Shown here piece after piece: positions 42,062 through 43,208 of a stretch of 64,000 bases of DNA (positions are counted from its first letter, which is position 1; each line of letters opens with the position of its first letter). This stretch comes from Desulfonispora thiosulfatigenes DSM 11270. Lineage in GTDB: Bacteria; Bacillota; Peptococcia; Peptococcales; Desulfonisporaceae. The notes below the pieces were generated by a model, which worked only from the letters and a program-made list of their open reading frames with translations, was not told where the DNA came from and made no database searches. Location of the stretch: NCBI RefSeq assembly GCF_900176035.1, contig NZ_FWWT01000016.1:142409-206408 (forward strand), read 5' to 3'. The translations under genes and the position numbers were made by a program.

Positions 42062-42439
42062 ATGGGGGTTAAAAAGGGTGAAGTATTAGTTGTTGATGAT
42101 CAATTAGGAGTAAGAGCATTACTTTCAATGGCCCTGAAAGATAGAGGATTTTCAGTAGAAACGGCTACTAACGGGCAAGAAGGGGTAGACAAAATAAAAG
42201 AAATCAATTCTGACTTAGTAATTATGGATGTAAAAATGCCAGTAAAAGATGGTGTCGAAGCTTTATATGAAATGAAAAATTTATATCCTAATACTCATAT
42301 AATTATGATGACTGCTTATAGTGAAGGATATACTGTTGAAGCTATTAAAAAAGGTGGCGCGGATAAGTTTATTATTAAACCTTTTGATATTGAATATCTT
42401 ATGAATTATGTTGATAATGTATTTGCACAAAAAGGTTAA
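42062..42439 (+). CDS. spo0F: Spo0F-like single-domain response regulator
   Basis: A 125-residue stand-alone receiver domain. Acidic pair VVDDQ, phospho-acceptor Asp56 in IMDVKMP, Thr in MTAYSE and Lys in IIKPFD. No output domain, as in Spo0F, the phosphorelay intermediate that leads to Spo0A and sporulation. ATG 42062 follows TGGAGG. Other single-domain receivers are possible, but the spore genes nearby support this call. Confidence 0.82.
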   Translation: MGVKKGEVLVVDDQLGVRALLSMALKDRGFSVETATNGQEGVDKIKEINSDLVIMDVKMPVKDGVEALYEMKNLYPNTHIIMMTAYSEGYTVEAIKKGGADKFIIKPFDIEYLMNYVDNVFAQKG

Positions 42440-42510
42440 GATTTTAATTAAAAGTGCAAAGGCTGAGATTTTTTTATTAAGGAATTATAAGAGAAGGCAT
42501 CATATAAAGA

Positions 42511-42533
42511 GGTAGCTTAGGCTACCTTTTTTC
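42511..42533 (+). terminator. Terminator after spo0F
   Basis: GGTAGC / GCTACC with a TTAG loop and a T tract. Confidence 0.85.
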
Positions 42534-42570
42534 TTGCCGTTTTTATAAAGTTGTAATAGGATATACTAAA

Positions 42571-42706
42571 GGTAAGTCTCTTAAAGCAAGTTCTGAATTC
42601 AGGTGGAGATTCTTTCTCTCCACCTAAATTTTAGAACTGCAAATGCATGACTTAGTTGGCGTTTGACTGTCACCTAAAAAGGTGGGAGACTTACGCCAAC
42701 TTAGTC
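42571..42706 (+). ncRNA. Candidate structured RNA with a pseudoknot
   Basis: Four helices fit together in 136 nt. P1: GTAAGTCTC (42572-42580) with GAGACTTAC (42686-42694). P2: AGTTCT (42589-42594) with AGAACT (42633-42638), continued by AGGTGGAGA/TCTCCACCT (42601-42609 with 42617-42625). P3: GTTGGCG (42655-42661) with CGCCAAC (42694-42700), extended by GACT/AGTC (42649-42652 with 42703-42706). P4: CACC/GGTG (42671-42674 with 42681-42684). P1 and P3 cross, making a pseudoknot. A -10-like TATACT (42562-42567) would start the RNA at about 42573. There is no T tract at its end. The family is not identified with certainty; raiA RNA of Clostridia is one candidate to test. Confidence 0.6.
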
Positions 42707-42731
42707 AGGTTAAATTAGAGGAGGTTTTAGA

Positions 42732-43208
42732 TTGGTTTCCATTGTAACTAAAAGTCCACAAGAAACTGAATATATAGGTAAGAGAATGGCTGCATTTTTA
42801 ACACCAGGAGATATTATTTCTCTAACTGGAGATTTAGGTGCAGGAAAAACCTTGTTAGTACAAGGAATTGCAAAAGGTTTAGGGATAGAAGATATAGTAA
42901 CTAGTCCAACCTTTACAATTATACAACAATACGAAGAAGGAAGAATTCCTCTTTATCATATGGATGTATATCGTATCAAGGATCCTATCGAAATGGAAGA
43001 CATAGGATATGAAGAGTATTTTTACGGTCAGGGAGTAACCTTTGTCGAGTGGGGCAATTTAATTCCAGAATTATTTCCTGAAGAACATCTAAAAATACAT
43101 ATTACAAATATTGAAGATGGACGAGAAATAGATTTTGAGCCAGTGGGTCGTCATTATATGGACCTAGTTGAGGAGTTGACAGGACATGCTTATACTCGGA
43201 TTAGATAG
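42732..43208 (+). CDS. tsaE: tRNA t6A synthesis ATPase TsaE
   Basis: P-loop ATPase of the threonylcarbamoyl-adenosine machinery. Walker A GDLGAGKTLLVQG, then SPTFTIIQQY and HMDVYRI. The 158 residues are normal. Start TTG 42732 follows GAGGAGG. It overlaps tsaB by 23 bases and heads tsaE-tsaB-rimI-tsaD. Confidence 0.95.
   Translation: MVSIVTKSPQETEYIGKRMAAFLTPGDIISLTGDLGAGKTLLVQGIAKGLGIEDIVTSPTFTIIQQYEEGRIPLYHMDVYRIKDPIEMEDIGYEEYFYGQGVTFVEWGNLIPELFPEEHLKIHITNIEDGREIDFEPVGRHYMDLVEELTGHAYTRIR

Follow-up and report, generated by a model that had tools for sequence, protein, structure and literature searches.

A probable mobile element made of two hairpins in the tsaE leader of Desulfonispora thiosulfatigenes

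bcr1 of the Bacillus cereus group is a non-coding, multi-copy and MITE-like repeat of about 150 bp with a TTTAT motif and a conserved secondary structure, which lies between genes and often in UTRs and has no known mobilising enzyme (PMC6542083, PMC3446304, PMC2267715). PATEs (palindrome-associated transposable elements), members of the IS200/IS605 family, are gene-less too: they have hairpins near both ends and no terminal inverted repeats, their terminal oligonucleotide corresponds to the target, and genomes that carry them may lack intact TnpA (PMC3119063, PMC7290912).

We analysed a stretch of 64,000 nucleotides from Desulfonispora thiosulfatigenes DSM 11270 (the window), in which a first-pass annotation had proposed a pseudoknotted non-coding RNA between spo0F and tsaE. 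The sequence at 42581-42714 is probably a gene-less mobile element of two hairpins that inserts at ATAAA-like intergenic sites and has ATAAA at both ends; as its mover we infer, more tentatively, a Y1 transposase. Compared by description only, bcr1 appears to be the closest named analogue: the two are alike in size class, lack of coding capacity, multiple copies, intergenic and UTR positions and structure, TTTAT is ATAAA reversed, and the traits of bcr1 group A (TTTAT/ATAAA ends, mobile, intergenic, structured) are all found in the element. Reports confine bcr1, however, to the B. cereus group; the two-hairpin element occurs in many families of the sample of another phylum. With PATEs the element shares a length too short for a gene, hairpins at the ends and a terminal target motif, and like them it has no coding capacity, no terminal inverted repeats and subterminal hairpins; it differs in that its hairpins are long and cover nearly its whole length, and in that no IS605 parent with the same ends turned up in the carriers.

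The element and its place in the tsaE leader

The window copy belongs to an interspersed repeat of 134 nt (Table 1). In the window genome, with its TTRAA subfamily, the bounds were set by an alignment of eight full copies; the left terminal motif is TTRAA in this genome and ATAAA in most relatives. Neither the ends TTRAAGC / CAGGTTAAA nor the ends ATAAAG / GGATAAA are inverted repeats.

Table 1. Positions of the element, its parts and its neighbours in the window
Feature	Position	Strand	Evidence
spo0F-like receiver gene, upstream of the gap	42062-42439		Pfam
spo0F terminator, Rho-independent type, AGGTAGC-TTAG-GCTACCT with T tail	42510-42532	+	sequence
conserved tsaE promoter region, TTGCCG-N17-TAGGAT, overlapping TATACT	42534-42567	+	by-eye alignment with relatives
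flanking GTAAGTCTC, outside the element, not conserved	42572-42580		comparison with other copies
copy of the two-hairpin mobile element (probable), 134 nt including TTAAA at both ends	42581-42714	+	alignment of eight full copies, four empty orthologous sites
left terminal TTAAA, left direct repeat/target motif	42581-42585		copy alignments, filled/empty pairs
hairpin 1, GCAAGTTCTGAATTCAGGTGGAGA ... TCTCCACCT..AGAACTGC	42586-42640	+	fold and compensatory changes
linker AAATGCAT joining hairpins 1 and 2	42641-42648		copy comparison
hairpin 2, GACTTAGTTGGCG ... CGCCAACTTAGTC, inner CACCTAAAAAGGTG stem	42649-42706	+	fold and compensatory changes
TTAAA at the right end, second copy of the target motif	42710-42714		copy alignments, filled/empty pairs
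Shine-Dalgarno sequence GAGGAGG of tsaE, directly 3' of the element	42718-42724	+	sequence
tsaE, first in the run tsaE-tsaB-rimI-tsaD, start codon TTG at 42732	42732-43208	+	Pfam

The predicted fold of the element has -61.6 kcal/mol (z = -10.2; none of 200 shuffles was as stable) and consists of the two hairpins in tandem, with no pseudoknot. The complementary segments described by the first-pass annotation are thus present beyond chance, and its GTTGGCG/CGCCAAC helix is real and a conserved part of hairpin 2. Covariation of the helices, which the same annotation had put forward as a check, is found as well: in an alignment of 15 class homologues, 20 of 43 pairs have changed on both sides, 95% of the cells pair and 68 cells are compensatory (19.5 +/- 3.6 in shuffles), a signal that is lost when the partners are slid; since many of the aligned copies are paralogues, these cells cannot be counted as independent. 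Most copies share mismatches, T-T and G-G, at constant positions of the outer stem of hairpin 2; the window copy has lost the G-G mismatch. Counts of G-U versus A-C on the plus strand were 30:13 at first, mostly from fixed wobble columns, and 52 versus 35 without these columns, which is not significant (p = 0.09). The substitution pattern argues that pairing of both hairpins is under selection, whether as RNA or as DNA.

The proposed pseudoknot, in contrast, does not hold. It depends on a crossing 9-bp helix between GTAAGTCTC (42572-42580) and GAGACTTAC (42686-42694), and the 5' strand of this helix is absent beside all seven other copies; the flanks are dissimilar among the compared copies, which places this strand outside the element. 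A 9-mer match as long as the crossing helix is found in 1.9% of shuffled flanks. In reverse complement, the flank matches part of the element exactly, which could be due to chance or be the relic of an earlier inverted copy.

The surroundings are as first annotated: a spo0F-like gene and tsaE flank the gap, the hairpin of the spo0F terminator is present upstream (the terminator scanner gave only a minus-strand reading of this stem), and the -10-like TATACT (42562-42567) lies inside a promoter that is conserved in four relatives by alignment by eye and was not called by the consensus promoter scanner. The tsaE leaders of these relatives (G003, G009, G011 and G013) have the promoter GTTGTAATAGGATATACTA or close variants of it at a nearly equal distance from the Shine-Dalgarno sequence and have no element. 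The copy at 42581-42714 has inserted into the tsaE operon's 5'UTR, downstream of the conserved promoter and upstream of the Shine-Dalgarno sequence, and is therefore presumably transcribed with the tsaE leader, in which, judged from the sequence, it is most likely a passenger.

Copies, spread and insertion sites

A search of the window genome with 42540-42731 revealed additional copies elsewhere, on other contigs; almost all of them start at the equivalent of 42581 and end at about 42714. The covariance-model search listed seven near-full copies in this genome (129-134 nt, 86-93% identity), one deletion copy of 87 nt before trmD and several remnants; one copy was also found in another family. 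At G000:C8:144331-144381, a deletion derivative lacks both hairpins, as if they had gone by slippage across them, and retains the linker and the right end.

Across the phylum, model R2 matches 46 of 398 sampled genomes and 38 of 268 genera (E <= 1e-4); of the 21 genomes reached via tsaE relatives a single one, from the Clostridia, has a match. A recount in eight genomes gave between 3 and 60 copies per genome. According to simple ORF calling, none of 57 classified copies is inside a reading frame, and the left end of eleven copies coincides with the stop codon of the upstream gene. Orientation is neutral, with 20 intergenic copies in sense to both neighbours and 20 in antisense; intergenic copies in both orientations indicate a small, non-autonomous mobile element. 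In G372, 37 copies have a mean identity of 94%, and ATAAA is exact at the left end of 33 and at the right end of 25 of them. The right ATAAA is thus more variable than the left, as though one of the two belonged to the host, and this is unlike the prediction of the simplest plus-strand IS608-like scheme.

Mobility is most directly visible in a pair of sister species, at three loci that are filled in G172 and empty in G059, with a net insertion of 126 bp each. The empty sites read flank-ATAAA-flank and the filled sites flank-ATAAA-[element]-ATAAA-flank, with an otherwise unchanged joint; one of the three insertions has GTAAA on the left. Insertion at ATAAA is exact in the three pairs, and the presence of ATAAA at both ends fits a 5-bp duplication equally well.

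Several unusual arrangements were seen. At G022:C132:2196-2778 (L235), five copies follow each other head to tail, the terminal ATAAA being common to neighbours. G228 has a variant of about 158 bp with 29 matches in the genome, for example four copies within about 6 kb (C49:114696-120897). In G011, a match to TwoAYGGAY RNA (RF01731) on the minus strand of L104:1341-1504 abuts an element copy at 1501-1621. Among plasmid and phage records, the window and G059 copies had no match and the consensus had only short matches to the hairpin tips (E <= 10); viral contigs are nearly free of the element, with no hit for three search patterns and one contig for the fourth.

RNA or mobile DNA, and which mover

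A regulatory or structural RNA of the tsaE leader, be it a riboswitch, a raiA-like RNA or a new ncRNA, would explain the strong covarying fold as well as the position between a conserved promoter upstream and a Shine-Dalgarno sequence just downstream; this part of the initial proposal stands. The link to tsaE does not: four relatives have tsaE leaders without the element, copies adjoin unrelated genes in both orientations equally, and the excess of G-U over A-C that an RNA reading would favour is not significant on the plus strand. The empty orthologues together with the random orientation rule out a leader RNA specific to tsaE. raiA RNA (RF03072), suggested at first as the family to try, resembles the element in being a structured RNA of Clostridia of about 200 nt, but raiA does not occur as a dispersed, mobile repeat, and its Rfam covariance model has no match to the element: raiA is absent from the cmscan list for 42450-42800 (E <= 5), and it was not found in the window genome either, a genome search that is weak by itself since control genomes also had none. 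A match to another Rfam model was not found: no Rfam 15 family exceeds its gathering threshold on the element, the scan of the window returned only tRNAs, and the element had no Rfam match in 15 homologous loci. Altogether, we regard a leader RNA as very improbable.

If the sequence is a mobile element, it may be a palindrome-associated element of the IS200/IS605 type: a Y1 transposase acting in trans would recognise the hairpins and move the element as single-stranded DNA. On a minus-strand reading its left end would be hairpin 2, and by analogy with IS605 the transposon orientation of 42581-42714 would then be the minus strand. The absence of terminal inverted repeats, the hairpin at each end and the short, fixed target speak for a Y1 enzyme. 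An IS605 of G037 with tnpA and tnpB has a left end that weakly resembles hairpin 2 in reverse (L121; E = 0.0004, and 0.0014 in a second search), over only about 28-63 nt of G+C-rich hairpin: on the minus strand of the element, the inner stem of the CCCC..GGGG type, the CTATA loop and the internal loops are alike, but the outer stems and the other end are not, so that only the tip and the internal loops are similar. In Fusobacterium, short hairpin matches adjoin TnpB genes on one plasmid and in one phage; such matches are also found next to a transposase gene on a plasmid from Mycoplasmatota. Base pairing of the linker CTTATCC with one or the other end (ATAA or GGATAA) is feasible in most relatives, and we read it as compatible with a common guide; in the window genome's own TTRAA subfamily this pairing fails. 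A domain search of the window genome found neither Y1_Tnp nor TnpB, and Y1_Tnp is also absent from the carriers G372 (60 copies), G147, G169, G163, G026 and G033; because of these absences we consider mobilisation by a Y1 transposase to be close to an even call, and with its mobiliser absent, the copies in the window genome would be stranded at present. No element copy was clearly paired with a Y1 gene at the loci tested, and in the carriers we found neither a parent IS605 with matching ends nor a full-length parent.

The same kind of element could be moved in trans by a recombinase or transposase other than Y1, with ATAAA as a 5-bp target duplication comparable to the TTTAT that Okstad 2004 is said to place at each end of bcr1. 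ATAAA at both ends of the three clean insertions and carrier genomes without Y1_Tnp make this a serious possibility, one that we hold tentatively given that terminal inverted repeats are absent, hairpin 2 resembles IS605 ends and no candidate enzyme was found. The lack of inverted repeats rules out a classical MITE with the target duplication of a DDE element. It is improbable that the element is a REP/BIME-type repeat which RAYT transposases have spread: RAYT-like Y1 genes (250-350 aa) are present in several carriers, including G022, G172 and G059, but not in the window genome, G026, G033 or G372, the tested RAYT genes and RAYT-type loci had no copies beside them (for the genes, none within 1.5 kb), and the two-hairpin unit of 134 nt is far longer than described REPs with their 20-40 bp (PMC3733652). 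Finally, a phylum-wide family of gene-less, self-structured mobile elements is conceivable but rather unlikely, in which compensatory change would have preserved both hairpins over dozens of genera while several copy-rich carriers have no detected Y1 transposase, and which a yet undescribed enzyme or host factor would move at ATAAA.

Meaning for the family

Literature searches with pieces of the consensus returned no description of the element, which is weak evidence from a limited sample. Small mobile elements without genes are a known kind, which this element joins with an unusually wide range. What appeared to be an orphan RNA is now an element that can be searched for with a consensus and covariance models, and annotation is affected in many genomes of the phylum, in UTRs, at stop codons supplied by ATAAA and through false ncRNA calls. 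The finding also raises the question of which factor mobilises hairpin elements without genes in carriers with as many as 60 copies in which no Y1 transposase was detected. If homology to bcr1 is true, the bcr1-like kind of element would extend beyond the B. cereus group.
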